Part shown: piece by piece, positions 13,702 to 26,036 of the stretch
Position numbering within the stretch: position 1 is the stretch's first letter
Layout of the letters: every line of letters starts with the position of its first letter
From: [Collinsella] massiliensis
Lineage (GTDB): Bacteria; Actinomycetota; Coriobacteriia; Coriobacteriales; Coriobacteriaceae
Length of the DNA: 35,698 nt
Assembly: GCA_000333815.1 (NCBI GenBank)
Contig: CAPI01000062.1
Span: forward strand, 1-35,698
Reading direction: 5' to 3'
Position numbers and translations under genes: made by a program
The notes under the pieces: model-generated
Database searches by the model: none
What the model saw: the letters and a program-made list of their open reading frames with translations, nothing else
Told to the model about the DNA's origin: nothing

Positions 13702-15129
13702 ATGGAGGAGCGAAAAAAGCTCGGTTTCTTTCCCATGTTCGCCTCGATTCTGGCCGGCATGATCGGCTCCGGTGTCTACGACCTTTCGTACCAGCTCGGC
13801 TTGGTTGCTTCTCCTGGTGCCGTCATCATCGCGTGGGCGGTCTGCTTCATCGGCATGCTCACCTTCACGCTATCCCTCATGAACCTTCTGAACAAGGAGC
13901 CCGAGGGCGATGGCCTGTACGTCTACGCGAATAAGGCCGCCGGCCCGCTCGGGGAGTTTATGAGCGCCTGGGGCTACTGGATGAGCGGATGGATCGGCAA
14001 CATCGCGTTCGCGACCATGATGATGATTGCGCTGTCGACCTTCTTCCCCGTGCTCGGCGATACCGGCACGAGCTGGCCCGCCATCATCGTCGCCTCGGTG
14101 GTCATGTGGGCGCTGTTCTTCTTCATCAACCGCGGCGTCGAGAGCGCCATGATTATCAACTCGATCCTTACCGTGATCAAGGTCATCCCCCTCGTCCTGT
14201 TCTTCGTCGTGGTGGTCGTGAGCTTCAACTTCGGCGTGTTTACCACGGACTTCTGGACGAACTTCGCGGGCAACGTCACCCATGGCGGGTTCGACGCGCA
14301 GTCCGTCTTCGACCAGGTCACGAACTCCATCATGTCGCTGGTGTGGGTGTTCATGGGCATCGAGACCGCGGCACTCATGTCGCGCCGCGCCCAGAGCAAG
14401 AGCATCGCGGCGAGCGCCTCGATCACGGGTCTTGCCTGCGGTACGATCCTCATGTTTATCATCTCGATCCTGCCTTACGGCGTCATGACGGCCGACGAGT
14501 TCGTCGCCCTCGGCGAGCCCTCGGTCGCGCGCATGCTCGAGCTCTACATCGGCCCCATCGGCGGGCACCTCATCTCGGCTGCCATGGTGATCTCGATCTT
14601 AGGCGCGTGGATCAACTACACGCTCGGACCCACCGAGTCGCTGCTCATCCTCTCGGACCATGGCCTGCTGCCCAAGAAGTTCGGTGAGCTGAACGACCGC
14701 GGCGTGCCCACGTTCTCACTCTTCCTCACCACGCTCCTGGGCAACCTCCTGCTCATCTCCATGCACTTCACCGAGGACGCCTACAACTTCGGCTACAGCC
14801 TGAGCGCGTCGGCGATCCTCATCACCTGGGTGTTCATCACGATCTATCAGGTGAAGCGCGGGATCCAGCATCCGGACGACCCGGGGCGCGTGAAGAACCT
14901 CGTGATCGGCGTCATCGGCTGCGTGTACTTCTTCTACGCGATGTTCGTCAGCGGCATCTCCTATATCCTCCTCTGCGGCGTGCTCTACGTGGTGGGATTC
15001 TTCTTCTACTACAAGGCGCGCAAGGACGAGGGCATGGAGGCCGCCTTCAACGGTCGCGAGAAGCTCGCCGTCGCCGCCGTCGCCGTCGCCGCGGTCGTTG
15101 GCCTCGTCATGTACGTGATGGGCATGTGA
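13702..15129 (+). CDS. arcD: APC-superfamily basic amino acid antiporter, probable arginine/ornithine exchanger
   Basis: A 475-residue membrane protein with about 12 membrane segments. The first segment has the APC signature region (FASILAGMIGSGVYDL, residues 12-27). The TM6-like stretch VWVFMGIETAALMSRRAQ (about 215-232) and the later NYTLGPTESLLILSDHGLLP (about 311-330) match the basic amino acid/polyamine antiporter branch. Placed first in an operon with arginine deiminase and a transcarbamylase, it most likely exchanges external arginine for ornithine. Exchange with putrescine or agmatine cannot be excluded given the odd transcarbamylase. ATG at 13702 follows GAGAGGAG. A 279-bp gap separates it from arcA; I see no promoter or terminator there that I can support. 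Confidence 0.85.
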   Translation: MEERKKLGFFPMFASILAGMIGSGVYDLSYQLGLVASPGAVIIAWAVCFIGMLTFTLSLMNLLNKEPEGDGLYVYANKAAGPLGEFMSAWGYWMSGWIGNIAFATMMMIALSTFFPVLGDTGTSWPAIIVASVVMWALFFFINRGVESAMIINSILTVIKVIPLVLFFVVVVVSFNFGVFTTDFWTNFAGNVTHGGFDAQSVFDQVTNSIMSLVWVFMGIETAALMSRRAQSKSIAASASITGLACGTILMFIISILPYGVMTADEFVALGEPSVARMLELYIGPIGGHLISAAMVISILGAWINYTLGPTESLLILSDHGLLPKKFGELNDRGVPTFSLFLTTLLGNLLLISMHFTEDAYNFGYSLSASAILITWVFITIYQVKRGIQHPDDPGRVKNLVIGVIGCVYFFYAMFVSGISYILLCGVLYVVGFFFYYKARKDEGMEAAFNGREKLAVAAVAVAAVVGLVMYVMGM

Positions 15130-15408: not shown

Positions 15409-16641
15409 ATGAGCAACATCCACGTGTACTCAGAGGTTGGCCCGGTCAAGAAGATCTTGATCTCGCGCCCCGAAGGGTACTTCGACGCCGTGCGGCCGGA
15501 CTCCCGCGAGTTCCAGCTCGTCGACGACGTGGTGTGGGCCGAGAAAGCCTGCAAGGACCACGACGTCTTCGCCGGGCACCTGAAGAGCATCGGCGCCGAG
15601 GTGGTCTACCTCGAGGACTTGTTCGAGCAGTCGCTCGGCGACGAGGAGGATCGCCGCCGGTTCCTCGACGAGTACATGGACGAGGACTTCATCTACGATC
15701 CCGCCCTGCGCGAGCAGATCGCCGCGTACCTCATGCCCATGAGCGCGCACGACTTCGCCCGCGCCGTCATGGCGGGCATCGAGAAGGCCGACCTCGAGGG
15801 CACGGCGAAGCCCGCGTCGCTCGCCGACGTGCTCCCCGACGAGACGCCCGAGGATCCCTATGCGATGCATACCTCGGCGAACTTCATCATGTGCCGCGAC
15901 CCCGGCTGCTCGGTGGGATCGAACTTCACGATCAACCGCTTCGTCCAGAACACCCGCAACCTTGAGACGGTCGTGTGGAAGCACGTCTTCGAGAACGTGC
16001 CGTCCTTCGCCGGCGGCGCGCAGCTCGTGCACACGAACGACCCGCACGGCGAGACCATCGAGGGCGGCGACATCGCCATCCTCTCGCCCGAGGTCATCGC
16101 GATCGGCCATAGCTGCCGCACGCACGCGGCGGCCATCGAGGAGTTCGCCAAGAACGTGCTCGCGAGCGGCGACAGCTTCAAGAAGGTCGTGGTGTTCGAG
16201 ATCCCCAAGGGTCGTGCCTACATGCACCTGGACACCGTCTTCACCGCGGTCGACGTGGACAAGTTCACCTACTATCCCGGCATCATGGGCGGCCTCAAGC
16301 TCTACGAGCTCACCCTCGGCGCCGACGGCGAGCTCCACGCGGCGTGCACGGAGGAGGAGCTGGATGAGGCGCTCAAGCGCCTGCTGCACCTGCCTGCCGT
16401 GGATCTCATCCCCTGTGCCGGCGGGCATCCCTATTGGGCCGACTACGAGCAGTGGTCCGACGGTTCCAACACGCTCGCCGTGGCGCCGGGCGTGGTGTGC
16501 ACCTACGACCGCAATTACCGCACCAACGAGGTGCTTCGCGCGCACGACATCAAGGTGCTCGAGGTTCCCTCCGGCGAGCTCTGCCGGGCGCGCGGCGGCC
16601 CGCGCTGCATGAGCATGCCGCTCGTCCGCGAGGACCTGTAG
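15409..16641 (+). CDS. arcA: Arginine deiminase
   Basis: Hydrolyses arginine to citrulline and ammonia in the cytoplasm, the first step of the ADI pathway (ATP yield and acid resistance). ATG at 15409 follows AAGGAAGGAG. The 410 residues match the family. Catalytic elements are all present: Asp164 (CRDPG), Glu218 and Asp221 (IEGGDI), His273 (YMHLDTVFTAVD) and the nucleophile Cys400 (GGPRCMSMPL). The opening VYSEVGPVKKILISRPEG is the usual N-terminal guanidine-group modifier motif. It is the second gene of the arc operon, and 86 bp separate it from the transcarbamylase gene. Confidence 0.96.
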   Translation: MSNIHVYSEVGPVKKILISRPEGYFDAVRPDSREFQLVDDVVWAEKACKDHDVFAGHLKSIGAEVVYLEDLFEQSLGDEEDRRRFLDEYMDEDFIYDPALREQIAAYLMPMSAHDFARAVMAGIEKADLEGTAKPASLADVLPDETPEDPYAMHTSANFIMCRDPGCSVGSNFTINRFVQNTRNLETVVWKHVFENVPSFAGGAQLVHTNDPHGETIEGGDIAILSPEVIAIGHSCRTHAAAIEEFAKNVLASGDSFKKVVVFEIPKGRAYMHLDTVFTAVDVDKFTYYPGIMGGLKLYELTLGADGELHAACTEEELDEALKRLLHLPAVDLIPCAGGHPYWADYEQWSDGSNTLAVAPGVVCTYDRNYRTNEVLRAHDIKVLEVPSGELCRARGGPRCMSMPLVREDL

Positions 16642-16727: not shown

Positions 16728-17819
16728 ATGATCAAGAAGAAGGACTTCATCGACGTTCAGGATTTCACCAAGGAGGAGTACCTCGAGCTTCTCGAGGTGA
16801 TCCGCGTGCTCAAGGAGGCCGACCAGAAGGGCATCCAGGTGCCGCTGCTCAAGGGCATGACGATCGCCCTCATGTTCGACCAGCCGAGCACCCGCACCCG
16901 CGTGTCGTTCGAGTCCGCCATGGACAAGCTCGGCGGCGACGCGCTCTATCTCGAGACCAAGACCATGCATGTGGGCGAGGGTCGCGAGACCATGAAGGAC
17001 ACCGCGCTCGTGATCTCGGGCATGTGCGACGCGATCGAGTGCCGCAACGAGAACCATGACGCGATCGTCGACCTCGCCAAGTGGGCGACCGTGCCGGTCT
17101 TCAACGGCATGTCCTCGGTGCACATGCATCCCACGCAGGCGCTCTGCGACCTCTTCACCGTCATGGAGAACAAGCCCGCCGGCAAGAAGCTCGAGGACGT
17201 GAAGGTCATGTGGGTGGGCGACAACTCCGCCGACACTTCCAAGGAGAACTACCACCTGGGCGGCGTGTGCCGCTCCGTGGCGCTCCTCTTCTCCATCATG
17301 GGCATCACCTTCATCTCCTGCGCGCCCGAGCGCGCCAAGATGCTGCCCGAGGACGTGGCGGCGTGCAAGGCGAACTACGAGAAGTCCGGCGGCCAGTTCA
17401 TCGAGACCGACGATCCGTACGAGTACATCGACCAGGTGGACTTCCTGTTCACCGATGCCTGGTGGTACCACGGCTCCGACGACCTCAAGCCCCAGAAGAT
17501 CGAGGAGTTCTTCCCCAAGTACTCCATCAACCAGGAGCTCATCGATGCCGCGCCCGAGTGGGTCAAGGTCATGCATCCGCTGCCGGGCAACCGCGGCTAT
17601 GAGATCTCGAATGAGGTCTGGGACGGCCCGCATTCGCTGCTCATGGAGCAGGCGGCCAACCGCTTCCACACCCAGAAGGGTCTGCTCGCCGCGTTCCTGA
17701 TCCCGCGCAAGCGCCCTGCCAACGAGGCGCTCGCAGCCTACTACACCGCTCAGGTCGAGGCGCTTACTACCGAGACTGTCGATAAGGTGGCTGGGACGCA
17801 CTTCGGTGAGTGGGTCTAG
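16728..17819 (+). CDS. arcB: Ornithine/putrescine-type carbamoyltransferase with atypical substrate motifs
   Basis: Third gene of the arc operon, so by context it should split citrulline into ornithine and carbamoyl phosphate. ATG at 16728 is preferred over ATG 16722 because AAAGGA lies six bases before it; 363 residues. The carbamoyl-phosphate site is intact: STRTR (54-58) and HPTQ (134-137). The amino-acid side is unusual. The HCLP loop of ornithine enzymes reads HPLPG (283-287), losing the conserved Cys, and the SMG motif is replaced by TDAWWYHGSDD (242-252). The RGYEISNEV stretch and the C-terminal extension of about 35 residues recall putrescine carbamoyltransferase more than classical OTCase. 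Carbamoyltransferase is certain; the amine substrate is not. The symbol is given by context. Confidence 0.8.
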   Translation: MIKKKDFIDVQDFTKEEYLELLEVIRVLKEADQKGIQVPLLKGMTIALMFDQPSTRTRVSFESAMDKLGGDALYLETKTMHVGEGRETMKDTALVISGMCDAIECRNENHDAIVDLAKWATVPVFNGMSSVHMHPTQALCDLFTVMENKPAGKKLEDVKVMWVGDNSADTSKENYHLGGVCRSVALLFSIMGITFISCAPERAKMLPEDVAACKANYEKSGGQFIETDDPYEYIDQVDFLFTDAWWYHGSDDLKPQKIEEFFPKYSINQELIDAAPEWVKVMHPLPGNRGYEISNEVWDGPHSLLMEQAANRFHTQKGLLAAFLIPRKRPANEALAAYYTAQVEALTTETVDKVAGTHFGEWV

Positions 17820-17991: not shown

Positions 17992-19086
17992 CTACCGTTC
18001 ACTCGGTTCCGGCTCGAAGATTCGTGCGAGATATGCGAGGTTCGCCTGGTAGTTCTCGTTGAGAAAACGGTAGTAGACAGCGTTTTGCACGCGTTGGGGA
18101 TAAACGAGCTCGGCCTCACGCATCTGATGTAGGTGTGCCGAGATCGAGCTCGGCGCTACGCGCAGCGTCTCGGCGAGCTCCTTAGTGGTTTTGGGAGAAG
18201 CCTGGAGTTCAATGAGGATCCTGAGCTTCATGGGGCTTCCGATGGCCTTGAGGAACAGTGCGATCTCTTCCGACACTTCAACGCTGGAACGCAAGGGGAG
18301 CGATATGCCCTTGTAGATGGTAAGACAGCCTTCAACGCAGTTGACCATAAGGTCCGGGGCGATGAATGCCGAGATGATCACTACCACGTTTTCAATGTCC
18401 GTGCGGCGGTAGGAAAGTTCGACTTGCTTTTCGAATCGTATGGCACCCTGCTCGATAACGATCTGGGGATGGCAGTTTCTGATATAGCTTTCTGCACCAA
18501 TCTGCCCGAGCAGGCGACGTTCGTCTGCAAGGCAATCGAGCTCTCGGACACCGATGTCCTGCCAGAGTCGAGAGAACACCTGCTCCCAGTACACCTTGAG
18601 GAAGGTCGAGATGCGCGTGCGCACGTCTTTTTCATGTTCGATGAGCCAGCGCGCCCTCTCGACGGAAACATAATGCCGAAAAATCGGTGAGTCGGTATCG
18701 AGTGTCTCGAGATTTCCCTCGAGCGCCTCTTTGACGGTTTGACGAGGAAGCAGTCCCGAGAAGATACCGTACATGAAGTCCACGCGGTCGATGGTCTCGA
18801 TGCTCGCTATGAAGCGCTCGGCGCTGTCGATGTTGTGTCGCTCGATGTAGCAAACATAGTCCATGAGGAGATTCCACTGCATGGTGATATTGGAGAGGAA
18901 GTCGAATTCCTCTCGCGATGCAGCGTCCATCGAGGAAAGGATACTGGTCGACCAGCCCTTCCATGTGGGATGGATATCGGGGCTTGCAAGCACATGGAGA
19001 CTCGAAACCATCTCAGCCACGGGGCTGAGTTTGATCTCGACGGAGCGGAACGAAGACGCTTCCGATGCATCGCCTTTTATGAGCAT
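17992..19086 (-). CDS. ArsR-type winged-helix regulator with N-terminal DUF5937-like domain
   Basis: A 364-residue protein. The C-terminal 90 residues are an ArsR-like winged helix (about 270-350): ALFLKAIGSPMKLRILIELQ, then TTKELAETLRVAPSSISAHL with recognition-helix residues. There is no obvious metal-binding cysteine cluster. The N-terminal 250 residues resemble the DUF5937-type effector region (SPVAEMVSSLHVLASPDIHP at about 21-40). It therefore probably binds DNA and an unknown ligand. ATG at 19086 has AAAGGG upstream. It is convergent with the arc operon and shares its terminator. Whether it controls arc or a distant target cannot be told. A TCACA/TGTGA palindrome lies in its promoter region. 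Confidence 0.75.
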   Translation of the reverse strand: MLIKGDASEASSFRSVEIKLSPVAEMVSSLHVLASPDIHPTWKGWSTSILSSMDAASREEFDFLSNITMQWNLLMDYVCYIERHNIDSAERFIASIETIDRVDFMYGIFSGLLPRQTVKEALEGNLETLDTDSPIFRHYVSVERARWLIEHEKDVRTRISTFLKVYWEQVFSRLWQDIGVRELDCLADERRLLGQIGAESYIRNCHPQIVIEQGAIRFEKQVELSYRRTDIENVVVIISAFIAPDLMVNCVEGCLTIYKGISLPLRSSVEVSEEIALFLKAIGSPMKLRILIELQASPKTTKELAETLRVAPSSISAHLHQMREAELVYPQRVQNAVYYRFLNENYQANLAYLARIFEPEPSER

Positions 19087-19273: not shown

Positions 19274-20605
19274 TTACTCGTTCGCCTCGGCGCCTTCTGC
19301 CCAGGCGGCGGTGTCCTCGATGCGGATGAGACTCGCCACGCGCTCGATCGTCGGCAGCTTCGCGAGTTCGGCGCAGGCGGCTTGGATGTCGCCCTCGCGC
19401 GCCTCCTCGGTGAGCACGACGATGCAGCGGCCGTCGTCCTGGACGACCTGCCGTGCCTCGGCGACGCCGATCTTGAACGCCTCGAGGGTGTCGGCGACGG
19501 CGGGGAGGGCGTCGTTGGTGTGCGTGGTGGTAAGGCGCAGGTAGTAACGGCAGCGAAGATCCTCGATCGAGCGGATCTCGAATCGGCGCTCGTAGGGCTC
19601 GGCTTCCGCCTCGGGTGCCTCGCCGCGCGAGATGGCGCGCGCAAGCTCGAGGATATCGCCCACCACGGCGCTCGCGGTGGGGAAGGAGCCCGCGCCCGCG
19701 CCGTAGAACATCGTCTCGCCCACGGAGTCGCCCACGGCGAAGACCGCGTTCATAGCGCCGTTCACGCTAGCGAGCATATGGCGCTCGGGAATCATGGTGG
19801 GGTGCACGCGCGCGTCGATCCCCGCGTCGGTCATGCGCGCGATACCGAGCAGCTTGATGACGCAGCCCATCTTGCGCGCCTCGTCGATATCGACGGGTGA
19901 GATGTCGCGGATGCCCTGCATGTACACGTCGTCCGTGGTCACGCGCGTGTGGAAGGCGATGGACGAGAGGATCGCGACCTTGCTTGCGGCATCGAAGCCG
20001 TCGACGTCGGCAGAAGGATCTGCCTCGGCGTAGCCCAGACGCTGCGCGTCGGCGAGTACATCGGCGAAACTCGACCCTTCAACCGTCATGCGCGAGAGGA
20101 TGTAGTTTGTGGTCCCGTTCAAGATGCCGGCGATGGTGAGCATGCGGTTGCCCACGAGCGAGCGCTCGAGTGTCGCCACGATGGGGATTCCGCCGCCCGC
20201 AGACGCCTCGCAGCGCAGCTGGACGCCCGCCTCGCGCGCAAGGCCGCACAGCCGTTCCATGTTTCGGCCGAGCAGCGCCTTGTTCGCGGTCACGACGTGC
20301 TTGCCGGCCTCGAACGCGGCCTCGAAGATCTCTGTCGCGGGATGCTCGCCGCCGATGAGCTCGACCACGATATCCACCGCGGGATCCGCTACCACGTCGT
20401 GCCAGTCGGTGGTGAACGCCTCCGGCGCGATGCCGAGTTCCGCCGCCCGCTCCGGCTCGAGCGCGCATGTCTTCGCGACGCGCAGGTCGACGCCGAAGGC
20501 ACGCAGGTACTCGTCGCGATTGCGCGCGATGGTGAGCGCGGTACCGCCGCCCACGGTTCCGAGTCCGATGAGTCCCACGTTCACGGTGCGCGTAGTTTCG
20601 GGCAT
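19274..20605 (-). CDS. hom: Homoserine dehydrogenase
   Basis: Reduces aspartate semialdehyde to homoserine, the branch point to threonine, methionine and (via threonine) isoleucine. ATG at 20605 follows GAGGAGC; 443 residues, the usual Gram-positive length. The NAD(P)-binding loop GLGTVGGG is at 14-21. TANKALL (about 107) and the catalytic-domain stretch GILNGTTNYIL (about 180) follow, with YAEADPSADVDGFDAASK (about 210) containing the conserved acidic and Lys residues. A C-terminal ACT domain (about 350-435) implies feedback control, typically by threonine. It is a single gene here, divergent from the liv operon. Confidence 0.95.
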   Translation of the reverse strand: MPETTRTVNVGLIGLGTVGGGTALTIARNRDEYLRAFGVDLRVAKTCALEPERAAELGIAPEAFTTDWHDVVADPAVDIVVELIGGEHPATEIFEAAFEAGKHVVTANKALLGRNMERLCGLAREAGVQLRCEASAGGGIPIVATLERSLVGNRMLTIAGILNGTTNYILSRMTVEGSSFADVLADAQRLGYAEADPSADVDGFDAASKVAILSSIAFHTRVTTDDVYMQGIRDISPVDIDEARKMGCVIKLLGIARMTDAGIDARVHPTMIPERHMLASVNGAMNAVFAVGDSVGETMFYGAGAGSFPTASAVVGDILELARAISRGEAPEAEAEPYERRFEIRSIEDLRCRYYLRLTTTHTNDALPAVADTLEAFKIGVAEARQVVQDDGRCIVVLTEEAREGDIQAACAELAKLPTIERVASLIRIEDTAAWAEGAEANE

Positions 20606-21005
20606 ATGCAGCTCCTCGTCCTTCGAATGATGAGATCCAGCCCGGCCGGTTTCCACCATGTTGGTTGCGCGCGGGCATCTACGACCATATCTGCCTGCAA
20701 TTCCGGCGTGTTTGGCGCATGAGGGGCGAAACAGAGATGTAACATGCTCCGCACAGGTGTGGAGGCCGAAGAACCCGCAGGTAGCGTTTATGCGCGAGCC
20801 GCTTTGCACGCTTTTCGCGCCTCCTGGGGAGTCCGGCTGCCCCCAGAACCCTTACGTTTCTTGCGAAAAGAGAGTAATCTAGCACGAACTACCTGTTGAA
20901 AGGTATGGGAATTTGCGTCCTTCCTGCGTGGCCGCACGCGGGGTATTGGGCGTTTGTGGGGGCTGCAGCGGTACGTCGCCGCTGCCGAATGAAGGGAGCG
21001 TTTGC
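20606..21005. other. 400-bp divergent intergenic region, hom / livK
   Basis: No convincing reading frame. A plausible plus-strand promoter is TTACGT (20852-20857), a 17-bp spacer and TAATCT (20875-20880), which would give a livK leader of about 119 nt. The leader ends in a hairpin, GCAGCGG (20965-20971) with CCGCTGC (20979-20985), just before the ribosome site. I do not recognise a riboswitch or T-box. The hom promoter could not be placed. Confidence 0.45.
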
Positions 21006-22274
21006 ATGTCGAGTCGCACTGCTATGCAAAACCTTTCCGTTAATCGTCGCACGTTCGTCGCGGGTACCGCGGGCCTTGGCCTCGTGGGCGTGCTCGCCGG
21101 CTGCTCCGGTGAGGGCGAGACGGGCGGCACCGGTTCCGCCGCGTCCGCTGGCGGTACGTTCAAGGTCGGCGGCATCGGACCCCTCACGGGCGGCGCTGCC
21201 ATCTATGGCAACGCGGTCAAGAACGGCGCACAGATCGCCATCGACGAGATCGCAGAGGCGGGCGGCGACGTCCAGTTCGAGATGAACTTCCAGGACGATG
21301 AGAACGACGCCGAGAAGTCCGTGAACGCGTATAACAACCTCAAGGACTGGGGCATGCAGATCCTCATGGGCACCGTGACCTCCACGCCGTGCGTCGCCGT
21401 GACCGCCGAGTCCAACGCGGACAACATCTTCACGCTCACCCCGTCCGGCTCCTCGACGGACTGCATCGGCGGCCAGCCCGACGCGGATGGCAACATCTCC
21501 ACGCCGCGCAAGGACAACGTCTTCCAGATGTGCTTCTCCGACCCCAACCAGGGCGCCGCTTCCGCGCAGTACATCTCCGAGCAGGGGCTCGGCACCAAGA
21601 TCGCCATCATCTACAAAAACGACGACACCTACTCCATGGGCATCCATGACACGTTCGTGAACAAGGCCGAGGAGCTCAACCTCGAGATCGTCTCTGAGTC
21701 CACGTTCACCGAGGATTCCCAGACCGACTTCTCCGTGCAGCTCAACGACGCCAAGAACGCCGGCGCCGACCTCGTGTTCCTGCCCATCTACTACACGCCC
21801 ATCTCGCTCATCCTCACGCAGGCAGATCAGATGGGTTACGCGCCCAAGTGGTTCGGCGTCGACGGCATGGACGGCCTGCTCACGGTAGAGGGCTTCGACA
21901 CTTCCCTTGCCGAGGGCTGCATGCTCCTCACCCCGTTCGTCGCGACCGCCGAGGACGAGGCCACGAAGTCCTTCGTCGAGAAGTACCAGAGCGACGATTA
22001 CGGCAAGGGCGAGACCCCGAACCAGTTCGCCGCCGATGCCTACGACTGCATCTACGTGCTCAAGCAGGCCATCGAGGCCGCTGGCGTGACGCCCGACATG
22101 GACGCGCAGTCCATCAGTGACGCCCTCAAGGAAGCCATCGTGGCCGACGACTTCTCCTACACCGGTCTCACCACGGCTGGCGAGGCAGCGACCTGGTCCG
22201 ATACCGGTGAGATCTCGAAGATGCCCATGGGCATGGTCATCCAGGACGGCGTGTACATGCCGCTCGACGCGTAA
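21006..22274 (+). CDS. livK: Branched-chain amino acid ABC transporter substrate-binding lipoprotein
   Basis: Extracytoplasmic, lipid-anchored binding protein of a Liv-type importer. ATG at 21006 follows GAAGGGAG; 422 residues. The signal sequence has a twin-arginine-like start (NRRTF, 13-17) and a lipobox LAGC with the lipidated Cys33, followed by a Ser/Gly/Thr linker. The mature part is a periplasmic-binding type I fold: KVGGIGPLTGGAAIYG at the start, then DDENDAEKSVNAYNNL, and a ligand-pocket region with TPCVAVTAESN. Ligand inferred from the family and from four downstream Liv genes: leucine, isoleucine or valine. A 203-bp gap with a large hairpin separates it from livH, as expected where the binding protein is made in excess. 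Confidence 0.92.
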   Translation: MSSRTAMQNLSVNRRTFVAGTAGLGLVGVLAGCSGEGETGGTGSAASAGGTFKVGGIGPLTGGAAIYGNAVKNGAQIAIDEIAEAGGDVQFEMNFQDDENDAEKSVNAYNNLKDWGMQILMGTVTSTPCVAVTAESNADNIFTLTPSGSSTDCIGGQPDADGNISTPRKDNVFQMCFSDPNQGAASAQYISEQGLGTKIAIIYKNDDTYSMGIHDTFVNKAEELNLEIVSESTFTEDSQTDFSVQLNDAKNAGADLVFLPIYYTPISLILTQADQMGYAPKWFGVDGMDGLLTVEGFDTSLAEGCMLLTPFVATAEDEATKSFVEKYQSDDYGKGETPNQFAADAYDCIYVLKQAIEAAGVTPDMDAQSISDALKEAIVADDFSYTGLTTAGEAATWSDTGEISKMPMGMVIQDGVYMPLDA

Positions 22275-22312
22275 GGGCTCGCGGGTTGTAGCGTGTAAAA
22301 TGACCCCAGGGA

Positions 22313-22414
22313 TCGTGTAAAAACACCCCAGGGGTTATTTTACATGCTTGTATCGGCGGACTTATGATTCAGGGTGGCTGCATGTAAAATAACCCCTGGG
22401 GTGTTTTTACACGA
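22313..22414. repeat. Perfect 35-bp inverted repeat in the livK-livH gap
   Basis: Arms 22313-22347 and 22380-22414 are exact reverse complements with a 32-base loop. Each arm contains an ACCCC/GGGGT core flanked by GTAAAA-type ends. A degenerate direct copy of part of the left arm lies just upstream (22293-22309, GTGTAAAATGACCCCAG). It has no reading frame. As RNA it would form a very stable hairpin inside the operon transcript. Confidence 0.9.
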
Positions 22415-22477
22415 CGCTACACGTATGGAGGCTGCCTGTTCGTGGGCGGCCTCCGCTTCATATGAAAGGAGGGGGGC

Positions 22478-23359
22478 ATGGAATTCCTCGCGAACGTCAT
22501 CAACGGCATGAGCCTGGGCAGTGTGTACGCCATCATCGCACTCGGCTACACCATGGTGTACGGCATCGCCAAGATGCTCAACTTCGCGCACGGCGACGTC
22601 ATCATGGTCGGCGCGTACATCTGCTTCTGCAGCGTGAGCTATCTGGGACTGCCTGTGCTCGCAGGCATCGCGCTCTCGGTGGTGGGGTGCACGGTGCTCG
22701 GCATCGTGGTGGAGCGCCTCGCCTATAAGCCGCTGCGCAACGCCCCGTCGCTAAACGTCCTCATCACGGCCATCGGCGTGAGCTACTTCCTTCAGAATGC
22801 GGCGCTGCTCATCATGGGCTCCGACCCCAAGAGCTTCTCGGGCATCCTGAGCCTGCCGGCGCTCCAGCTCTTCGACGGGCGTCTTACCATCAGCGCGACG
22901 GCAGTCATCACCATCTTGGCGTGCGTCGCCATCATGGTTGCCCTCACGTTCTTCACGAGCAAGACGAAGATGGGCAAGGCCATGCGCGCCTGCTCCGAGG
23001 ACCGCGACGCGGCGCAGCTCATGGGCATCAACGTGAACTCGACGATCTCTATGGTGTTTGCCATCGGCTCCGGTCTCGCGGCCATCGCGGGCGTGCTCAT
23101 GTGCGCGGCGTACCCCACGCTCATGCCCACCACGGGATCCATGCCCGGCATCAAGGCCTTCACGGCGGCGGTGCTCGGCGGCATCGGCTCCATCCCGGGT
23201 GCGGCGCTCGGCGGCATCCTCTTGGGTATCATCGAGATTCTCGCGCGTGCCTACATCTCCACGCAGCTCGCCGACGCAGTGGTGTTCGCGGTGCTCATCA
23301 TCATGCTCCTCATCCGTCCGGCCGGCTTGCTTGGCAAGCCCGTGAACGAGAAGGTGTAG
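22478..23359 (+). CDS. livH: Branched-chain amino acid ABC transporter permease
   Basis: One of the two channel-forming membrane subunits of the Liv importer. 293 residues with about eight membrane segments, as usual for LivH. The N-terminal NGMSLGSVYAIIALGYTMVY and the cytoplasmic loop MRACSEDRDAAQLMGIN (about 168-184), which docks to the ATPases, are family hallmarks, and the late GGIGSIPGAALGG stretch (about 235-247) is typical. AAAGGAGG precedes ATG 22478. The livM coding region starts 10 bp after its stop. Confidence 0.94.
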   Translation: MEFLANVINGMSLGSVYAIIALGYTMVYGIAKMLNFAHGDVIMVGAYICFCSVSYLGLPVLAGIALSVVGCTVLGIVVERLAYKPLRNAPSLNVLITAIGVSYFLQNAALLIMGSDPKSFSGILSLPALQLFDGRLTISATAVITILACVAIMVALTFFTSKTKMGKAMRACSEDRDAAQLMGINVNSTISMVFAIGSGLAAIAGVLMCAAYPTLMPTTGSMPGIKAFTAAVLGGIGSIPGAALGGILLGIIEILARAYISTQLADAVVFAVLIIMLLIRPAGLLGKPVNEKV

Positions 23360-23368
23360 GTGAGAGTC

Positions 23369-24460
23369 ATGGGTATCATGCAGCTTAAGCCGCAGACGCG
23401 GAAGACCATCATCACCTATGCAATCGTCATCGTGGCGTTCATCGCCGTGACCATCCTGGACGCTGTCGGGCTCATCTCGAACTCGCTTTCCGGCCAGCTC
23501 GTGCCCATTTGCGCGTACGTGTCGCTTGCCGTGTCGCTCAACCTCGTCGTCGGTGTTTCGGGCGAGCTGTCGCTCGGCCACGCCGGCTTCATGAGCGTGG
23601 GCGCTTTCACGGGCGTCGTCGTGGCTGGTTGGCTTTCGTATCTCGGTGTCGAATCCGACCTCGTGCTCTTCGCCGTCTCGGCGGTGGCGGGCGCCATCCT
23701 CGCCGGCATCGTGGGCTTTTTGGTGGGCATCCCGGTCATGCGCCTGCGCGGCGATTACCTGGCCATCGTGACGCTCGCGTTCGGCGAGATCATCAAGAAC
23801 CTGCTCAACAACGTCTATATCGGCGTCGACGGAGCGGGCTTGCACTTCGCGATGCTCTCCGATTCCTCCGCCCTCGGCATGAGCCAGGGCGTCATCCTCA
23901 TCAACGGTGCGAAGGGCGCCGTGGGCATCAGCAAGGTCTCGACGTTCGCGCTCGGCATCGTGGTGGTGCTCATTACCGTGGCGGTGGTCTTGAACCTCAT
24001 GCACAGCCGCGACGGCCGCGCCATCATGGCGGTGCGCGACAACCGCATCGCCGCAGAGAGCGTGGGCGTGAACGTGACGAAGTACCGCCTCATCGCCTTC
24101 ACTGTGGCCTCCGCCCTTGCGGGCGTGGCCGGCGTGCTCTACGCCATGAACTACTCGACGGTCGTGCCGTCGCAGTTCGACTTCAACCAGTCGATCCTCA
24201 TCCTCGTGTACGTCGTGCTCGGTGGTATGGGTAACATCTCCGGATCCATCGTCTCGGCCGCCTTCCTCACGGTGCTGCCCGAGGTGCTGCGCCCCATCAA
24301 CCAGTACCGCATGCTGCTCTATGCGATCGTGCTCATCCTCGTGATGGTCGTGCCGCACCTTTCCATCTATCAGCGCGCGACCGAGGCACTTCGTCGGCGC
24401 TTCAGCCGTGGTGCCGCCAAGCCCGCGGTAGCCACGGAGGGCGGTGAGGCCGATGAGTAA
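23369..24460 (+). CDS. livM: Branched-chain amino acid ABC transporter permease
   Basis: Second membrane subunit of the Liv importer. ATG at 23369 is chosen because GGTGAG lies just before it; GTG at 23360 and ATG at 23378 are alternatives. About 363 residues with roughly nine membrane segments. LNLVVGVSGELSLGHAGFM (about 53-71) and the ATPase-docking loop VRDNRIAAESVGVN (about 221-234) are typical of LivM, as is GGMGNISGSIV (about 285-295). Its last 8 bp overlap the start of livG, so translation is coupled. Confidence 0.93.
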   Translation: MGIMQLKPQTRKTIITYAIVIVAFIAVTILDAVGLISNSLSGQLVPICAYVSLAVSLNLVVGVSGELSLGHAGFMSVGAFTGVVVAGWLSYLGVESDLVLFAVSAVAGAILAGIVGFLVGIPVMRLRGDYLAIVTLAFGEIIKNLLNNVYIGVDGAGLHFAMLSDSSALGMSQGVILINGAKGAVGISKVSTFALGIVVVLITVAVVLNLMHSRDGRAIMAVRDNRIAAESVGVNVTKYRLIAFTVASALAGVAGVLYAMNYSTVVPSQFDFNQSILILVYVVLGGMGNISGSIVSAAFLTVLPEVLRPINQYRMLLYAIVLILVMVVPHLSIYQRATEALRRRFSRGAAKPAVATEGGEADE

Positions 24461-25334
24461 GTTCACCGATTTCGCCCAGCGCCGTCGCGAGACCACCAAG
24501 ATGGTGCCCGTGCCGAGCGTTTCGATTATGCCCGAGCGCGACCTGGGCAAGGCGCCCGCACTCGAGTGTCTGCACCTGGGCATCGACTTCGGCGGCCTCA
24601 AGGCGGTCGACGACTTCAACATCACCGTAGGCCGCACGGAGATCTGCGGCCTCATCGGTCCCAACGGCGCGGGCAAGACCACGGTCTTCAACCTGCTCAC
24701 GAAGGTGTACGCGCCCACGCGCGGCACCATTATGGTCGACGGCCAGGACACCGCCGGTATGGATCCGGCACGCGTGAACCGTCTGGGTGTGGCGCGCACG
24801 TTCCAGAACATCCGTCTGTTCAACTCCATGACCGTTGAGGAGAACGTGGCGGTTGGCCTGCACAACCAGCGTCACTGTGGTATGGCGACGAGCATCCTGC
24901 GCCTCCCGCACCACTGGAAGAGCGAGCGGTACTACCACGAGCGGGCACTTGAGCTGCTCGATATCTTCGACATGGCGGGCCTCGCCGATCACGAGGCGGG
25001 TTCTCTGCCCTACGGCGCCCAGCGCCGCTTGGAGATCGTGCGCGCGCTTGCCACGAACCCGAAGCTGCTGCTGCTCGACGAGCCCGCGGCGGGCATGAAC
25101 CCGTCCGAGACGGCCGAGCTCATGGAGAACATCGTGAAGATCCGCGACCAGTTCCAGATCGCGATCATGCTCATCGAGCACGACATGAACCTCGTCATGA
25201 ACATCTGCGAGGGCATCTGCGTGCTGAATTTCGGCAAGATCATCGCCAAGGGCACGCCTGAGGAGATTCAGCAAAACGAGGCGGTCATCGAGGCGTACCT
25301 CGGTACGCAGGCGAAGAAGGAGGTGGAGGCGTAA
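24453..25334 (+). CDS. livG: Branched-chain amino acid ABC transporter ATP-binding protein
   Basis: First ATPase of the Liv importer, on the cytoplasmic face. ATG at 24453 overlaps the livM stop and has GGTGAGG upstream; 293 residues. Walker A is GPNGAGKTT (69-77), the signature is the LivG-type LPYGAQRRLEI (about 186), Walker B is LLLLDEPAAGMNP (about 207-219), and the H-loop is LIEHDMNLV. The first 33 residues form a polar extension (SKFTDFAQRRRETTK) before the ABC domain, longer than in the E. coli protein. The stop codon is directly followed by the livF start. Confidence 0.95.
   Translation: MSKFTDFAQRRRETTKMVPVPSVSIMPERDLGKAPALECLHLGIDFGGLKAVDDFNITVGRTEICGLIGPNGAGKTTVFNLLTKVYAPTRGTIMVDGQDTAGMDPARVNRLGVARTFQNIRLFNSMTVEENVAVGLHNQRHCGMATSILRLPHHWKSERYYHERALELLDIFDMAGLADHEAGSLPYGAQRRLEIVRALATNPKLLLLDEPAAGMNPSETAELMENIVKIRDQFQIAIMLIEHDMNLVMNICEGICVLNFGKIIAKGTPEEIQQNEAVIEAYLGTQAKKEVEA

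Positions 25335-26036
<702 letters not shown>

Follow-up and report, generated by a model that had tools for sequence, protein, structure and literature searches.

We found that the window (the whole stretch of DNA analysed here: 35,698 nt, contig CAPI01000062.1 of [Collinsella] massiliensis, assembly GCA_000333815.1) encodes a carbamoyltransferase whose acceptor site is, as far as its sequence tells, unlike that of any characterised carbamoyltransferase compared here. This protein, called the HPLP enzyme after one of its altered motifs, is by its sequence a member of a lineage on the side of the putrescine carbamoyltransferases (PTCs) that has been set into an arginine deiminase (ADI) operon, and not an ornithine carbamoyltransferase (OTC) with lost motifs. 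We consider it probable that it is a catabolic carbamoyltransferase of this PTC-like lineage, recruited into the ADI module and acting on the ureido-amino acid supplied by its partner deiminase. The genes concerned are the following:

13702..15129, + strand: ArcD-type APC amino-acid antiporter, first gene of the module (TIGR03810, 463 bits, below the cut-off of 591; PF13520)
15409..16641, + strand: divergent arginine deiminase, 410 aa (PF02274, 306.7 bits; TIGR01078, 373.9 bits, below the cut-off of 489.1)
16728..17819, + strand: HPLP-type carbamoyltransferase, 363 aa (PF02729 and PF00185; AF2 model; fold matches)
17992..19086, - strand: ArsR/SmtB-like regulator with DUF5937, downstream and on the opposite strand, homologues of which accompany the module in each of the five genomes that carry it

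The antiporter, whose solved relatives are AdiC, and the ADI lie upstream of the carbamoyltransferase on the same strand, which agrees with the arc operon setting named in the initial annotation. Judged by gene neighbours alone, the operon would read as 'arginine fermentation', yet the carbamoyltransferase and the deiminase both miss their family cut-offs. Scans for promoters and terminators gave matches no more frequent than in shuffled sequence. Farther along the window (19274-25500), reading of the ORFs by eye suggests a homoserine dehydrogenase-like gene (19274-20809, - strand), then a LivK-type binding protein and branched-chain amino-acid ABC transporter-like genes.

The carbamoyltransferase ORF is unbroken from its ATG, preceded by AAGGAATGGCA, to its TAG. 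In the profile scan, no NCBIfam model takes in its product at its cut-off: the PTC model TIGR04384 gives 343.6 bits (cut-off 500), the OTC model TIGR00658 stays narrowly, by about 5 bits, under its cut-off (275.9 against 280.85), the aspartate carbamoyltransferase (ATC) model reaches 160 of 237 bits, and the models of the knotted family fall far lower (AOTC, 96 of 288 bits; YgeW, 60 of 500). The closest solved relative by sequence is the E. faecalis PTC, which is also the top fold match of the AF2 model (pLDDT 88.4; 4a8p_A, TM 0.86/0.91). The features on which the assignment turns are:

16881..16901, + strand: Gln52-Pro-S-T-R-T-R58, carbamoyl-phosphate motif, in which a PTC-like Gln replaces the carboxylate-pairing Lys of OTCs
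16983..16985, + strand: Arg86 of the 80s loop (His83* in PTC, Lys in OTC), the Arg being limited to the HPLP clade
17127..17138, + strand: HPTQ, carbamoyl-binding motif, unbroken
17229..17264, + strand: insertion of about 11 residues (ADTSKENYHLGG) after GDNS, at the site of OTC Asn167 / PTC Gln164
17454..17483, + strand: acceptor loop D243AWWYHGSDD252, replacing DxxxSMG (OTC) or DVWYGLY (PTC)
17574..17585, + strand: HPLP, residues 283-286, in place of HCLP
17724..17768, + strand: C-terminal helix, residues 333-347, in the AF2 model, a PTC-type extension that OTCs do not have

The carbamoyl-phosphate motifs are all present (STRTR 54-58, R106 and HPTQ 134-137), and the motif positions, together with the orthologs, confirm the initial reading of an unbroken carbamoyl-phosphate site accompanied by HPLP for HCLP and WWYHGSDD for the SMG loop. 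HPLP is otherwise the ATC form of the motif. None of the three OTC motifs, namely the Lys of FxKxSTRT, DxxxSMG and HCLP, occurs in any of the five HPLP enzymes, which carry Gln52, DAWWYHG and HPLP instead. Among the PTC traits, the window enzyme has the Gln before STRT (FDQPSTRT) and the C-terminal helix, and lacks HCLP and the 230-loop signature (Y/W)(G/W)(V/L/I)X, which W246-Y247-H248-G249 breaks at positions 2 and 3. The ATC traits FxExSTRT and RxQxER are likewise absent, with Gln where FxExSTRT has Glu and WWYHG where RxQxER would be expected.

Four orthologs were recovered at 77-85% identity, one from the same genus (G063) and three from another family of the order (G239, G223 and G291), and all of them keep FDQPSTRT, DAWWYHG and HPLP. 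No others turned up in the samples of the order (299 genomes) and of the class (398, overlapping with the former), and the phylum sample of 396 genomes held no further one; a contig scan with a two-sequence alignment returned just the G063 ortholog and distant relatives, because the two peptide patterns of that scan do not fit the Eggerthellaceae-side orthologs. A sequencing or frame artefact is ruled out by the identity of HPLP and DAWWYHG in these four other genomes and by the pairwise dN/dS values of the carbamoyltransferase (0.01-0.31); those of the ADI are 0.02-0.18. The five genomes, from two families, share the entire module: the antiporter, orthologs of which (58-61%) adjoin every HPLP enzyme, the divergent ADI (79-90% identity to that of the window), the HPLP enzyme and the ArsR/DUF5937 regulator. 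In G223 and G291, arcC directly adjoins the carbamoyltransferase.

Descent was analysed on a maximum-likelihood tree of 41 rows, without ATCs and with the P. furiosus OTC, for which the E. faecalis PTC and the E. coli, V. vulnificus and P. furiosus OTCs, like the solved ADIs of the deiminase comparison, were taken from HMMER alignments. It replaced an earlier tree whose root lay on ATC branches of great length and in which the HPLP clade was basal; the EcATC row served for no more than distant outgroup or comparison purposes and is absent from the rebuilt tree. There, the HPLP enzymes form a single clade (100/99) nested within a 15-row clade (100/99) of uncharacterised PTC-like Coriobacteriia enzymes, and two separate clades, each at 100/99, hold the OTCs (10 rows) and the canonical PTCs (9 rows). 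Forcing the HPLP enzymes together with the OTCs was rejected (AU p=0.00043, delta lnL 41.3), as was forcing them together with the canonical PTCs, including the E. faecalis enzyme (AU p=0.0017). Of the relatives examined in the range of 41-48% identity, all those without HPLP adjoin an agmatine-deiminase-type gene; some of these partner deiminases lie far under the agmatine deiminase cut-off of 382 bits (105 bits at most, or without any match) and others reach it. The tree thus places the HPLP enzyme on the PTC side, on a branch close to the putrescine enzymes that has hardly been studied, and all five HPLP enzymes adjoin an ADI.

The initial annotation was thus correct in seeing no standard OTCase and in noting the missing ornithine-site motifs, on which motif, family-model and tree evidence agree. 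Its picture of an OTCase that lost its motifs does not stand, because the protein falls outside the OTC clade and within a PTC-like lineage, with classical OTCases elsewhere in the genome, and the phylogeny that it proposed as a check did not return a placement inside OTCases. An ordinary catabolic OTCase by descent, with a diverged acceptor loop, would suit the genomic position and an OTC model score only 5 bits short, but with three ornithine motifs absent, the OTC clade rejected and a C-terminal helix foreign to OTCs, we hold this to be highly improbable and regard OTCase descent as largely refuted. It is also improbable that the window enzyme is a diverged PTC that stands next to an ADI by coincidence or for regulatory reasons: the best family model and the best solved structures are those of PTC, and the Gln before STRT and the C-terminal helix are PTC traits, but HCLP and the 230-loop signature are missing, the model score is 343.6 against 500 bits, the PTC clade is excluded (p=0.0017), and the neighbour conserved in five genomes of two families is an ADI, not an agmatine deiminase (AgDI).

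The geometry of the pocket was deduced by alignment to published PTC residues. In OTCs, the Lys two residues ahead of STRT neutralises the ornithine carboxylate; in the E. faecalis PTC, Tyr233 lies tile-like at the place of that carboxylate and makes up a roof together with Glu236 and two residues of the adjacent subunit, Gln79* and His83*, and the use of ornithine rises when the 230 loop is altered in the direction of SMG (PMC3282769). In the HPLP clade, Gly249 aligns with Tyr233, His81 with Gln79, Arg86 with His83 and Asp251 with Glu236, and the acceptor-loop Asp is kept (Asp243 aligns with PTC Asp227). The PTC roof pair H83*-E236 would therefore be matched by R86-D251, the roof salt bridge being kept as Arg-Asp. 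Since the putrescine cap is lost, and the salt bridge and the acceptor-loop Asp appear to be retained, we infer that an acceptor with an additional carboxylate would suit the site better than putrescine. Among the rows compared, R86, N174, H176 and several more residues, some of them in the insertion, occur only in the HPLP clade. Shorter forms of the insertion are seen in the related PTC-like clade, and its region is modelled less surely (block pLDDT 66-84, AF2).

The partner ADI and its four orthologs form their own deep clade (100/100), and two of its segments (P. aeruginosa numbering) bear on its substrate:

15880..15900, + strand: pocket segment NFIMCRD (classical NLYFTRD), with F163M and T164C; N160 and D166 kept
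16573..16611, + strand: nucleophile segment GELCRARGGPRCM, with R401 and C406 kept, G400A and a Cys at 398

All five orthologs retain N160, D166, R185, E224, R243, H278, D280, R401 and C406, residues with established catalytic or substrate-binding roles in ADIs. As the catalytic and carboxylate-binding residues are kept, the partner ADI should still handle a guanidino-alpha-amino acid. At position 163, the module ADIs have Met and all 20 other ADIs compared have Phe; at position 164, they have Cys where the others have Thr or Ser; at position 400, Ala where the others have Gly, with one Ser; and Cys at 242 and 398 is found in no other ADI row. These changed pocket neighbours hint at a substrate other than plain arginine. 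Literature searches on homoarginine/homocitrulline, canavanine/canaline and ADI Phe163 yielded nothing naming a substrate.

Classical ADI and OTC genes, the latter with HCLP and SMG, are also present in all five HPLP genomes. The source genome has two further ADI-OTC operons, one on contig C42 (ADI, OTC with DVWVSMG and HCLP, and a YfcC-type transporter) and one on contig C130 (YfcC-type transporter, two ADIs, OTC with DVWVGMG and HCLP, and a further ADI-like gene), as well as two carbamate kinases on contig C66. These two operons with ordinary OTCases add to the initial annotation, as do the loss of the OTC Lys (Gln52), the PTC-like C-terminal helix and the changed ADI pocket. The further ADI-like gene adjoining the ordinary operon of C130 (L099:16642-17931, - strand) has a Ser aligned to the catalytic Cys (segment GFGGPSSLCM), and its product is possibly inactive or regulatory. 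One more sampled genome, G229, has an ortholog of the module ADI and lacks the carbamoyltransferase; at this locus (L163:8857-12278), the antiporter has an internal stop, the regulator match is split between frames and the ADI is still open, and the classical ADI-OTC-ArcC operon of the genome is unbroken. G229 was considered as a natural experiment on the acceptor and set aside, since the module is decaying there and so does not reveal it.

In the proposed pathway, the antiporter would import a guanidino-alpha-amino acid, which the partner deiminase would hydrolyse to a ureido-amino acid; phosphorolysis of the latter by the window enzyme would release an alpha,omega-diamino acid along with carbamoyl phosphate, carbamate kinase (encoded by the adjacent arcC in two relatives and elsewhere in the source genome) would make ATP, and the antiporter would export the diamino acid. 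The catabolic direction, the amino-acid acceptor and the ATP yield via carbamate kinase are all inferred, and the acceptor would carry an alpha-carboxylate held by new residues. Most likely, the module stands beside the two classical operons as a third fermentation system of the deiminase/carbamoyltransferase type, and a specialised one. Of the single acceptors, ornithine ranks first, at a little under an even chance, although the known OTC contacts to ornithine (Lys, Ser-Met, Asn and Cys) are absent and its binding is therefore presumptive; lysine, canaline or another relative derived from an arginine analogue are, taken together, nearly as likely. The initial annotation, in setting a rebuilt ornithine site against another amine, named the right pair of alternatives, between which sequence cannot choose.

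That the module ferments an arginine analogue (e.g. homoarginine with lysine as the product, canavanine with canaline, or some other guanidino-amino acid), both enzyme pockets having changed together, is a serious possibility, although we would not put it at even chances; it amounts to a more pointed version of the main reading, with ornithine left out. It would account for pocket positions that are changed in both enzymes and invariant within the module, and for the classical ADI and OTC kept for arginine in all five genomes, which would make any additional arginine-to-ornithine system redundant. The antiporter of the module stays under its arginine/ornithine family cut-off, which also speaks against arginine and ornithine, and in the source genome it is of another class than the YfcC-type genes of the classical operons; the module moreover has its own regulator, and in G229 it decays while the classical operon is unbroken. 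On the other hand, the sequence points to no natural substrate, the ADI retains every one of its ligands for carboxylate and guanidinium, and multiple arginine operons are common in the group, as in G060 with its three OTCs and at least four ADIs. Similarly tentative is the broader proposal that the module serves specifically to gain energy from a non-arginine guanidino-amino acid, with both enzymes of new specificity, and one of several such pairs with diversified acceptor sites in gut Coriobacteriia. If the site binds ornithine, a PTC-like scaffold would have acquired ornithine recognition anew; if another compound is bound, gut Coriobacteriia would draw ATP from a source with which they have so far not been credited.

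Further acceptor types occur among the PTC-like enzymes of Coriobacteriia (surveyed at loci L042, L087-L098 and L103-L106, in G063, G109, G189, G094, G142, G131, G148, G227, G129, G247, G023, G297, G273 and G199), with HCLP, HCMP, HYLP or HFLP and the loops DVWTYYG, SSVMWYDG, TGVVNYHK, TGVTWYYD, DAFCEGSDE and GEVFTFKG. All of these variants adjoin agmatine-deiminase-type genes, some of them far under the agmatine deiminase model, and the set looks like a range of guanidino-compound pathways. One relative, G109b (L087:9185-10240; about 46-48% identity), shares FDQPSTRT and DAWWYHG with the HPLP clade but has HCLP, adjoins a deiminase-like gene matching no NCBIfam model at 1e-8, and may share its acceptor with the HPLP clade. 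Another odd carbamoyltransferase type (L087:12539-13594, L148, L152 and L156, in G109, G060, G291 and G223) carries FEWGSTRTR or FEMESTRTR, a TTEEWEY or similar loop and HELP or HMLP, and falls under every family cut-off where scanned. In E. lenta, a second 'agmatine' operon is not induced by agmatine, and a related compound was suggested (PMC10234575), which makes the Coriobacteriia carbamoyltransferases without an assigned substrate a real, testable question. That a single enzyme family of gut Coriobacteriia has acceptor sites of several types may be of more consequence than the window gene itself.

Among known systems, PTC (E. faecalis; TIGR04384; PDB 4a8h, 4a8p and 3txx) resembles the window enzyme in giving the top family score and fold match, in the Gln before STRT, in the C-terminal helix and in the Asp opening the acceptor loop. 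The window enzyme departs from it by HPLP for HCLP, WWYHG for YGLY (Tyr233 to Gly), Arg86 for His83, the insertion of about 11 residues, a partner that is an ADI and not an AgDI, and a position outside the PTC clade. With ArcB (TIGR00658) it has in common the ADI, the ArcD-type antiporter, the carbamate kinase seen in two relatives, the carbamoyl-phosphate site and the acceptor-loop Asp; unlike ArcB, it lacks the FxKxSTRT Lys, SMG and the HCLP Cys, has an extra C-terminal helix and belongs to a different clade. The AgDI-associated PTC-like Coriobacteriia enzymes (G109b, G063a/b, G131a/b and G189a/b) share its clade (100/99) but have HCLP, HCMP, HYLP or HFLP and lie beside agmatine-deiminase-type genes. 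ATC shares HPLP, whereas the RxQxER loop and the Glu before STRT are missing from the window enzyme. Finally, the OTC-like enzymes of Trichomonas vaginalis, likened here by their published description only, likewise combine variant acceptor motifs (DxxxSYH, NCLP) with an arginine dihydrolase organism (PMC4581275), although the motifs themselves are different.
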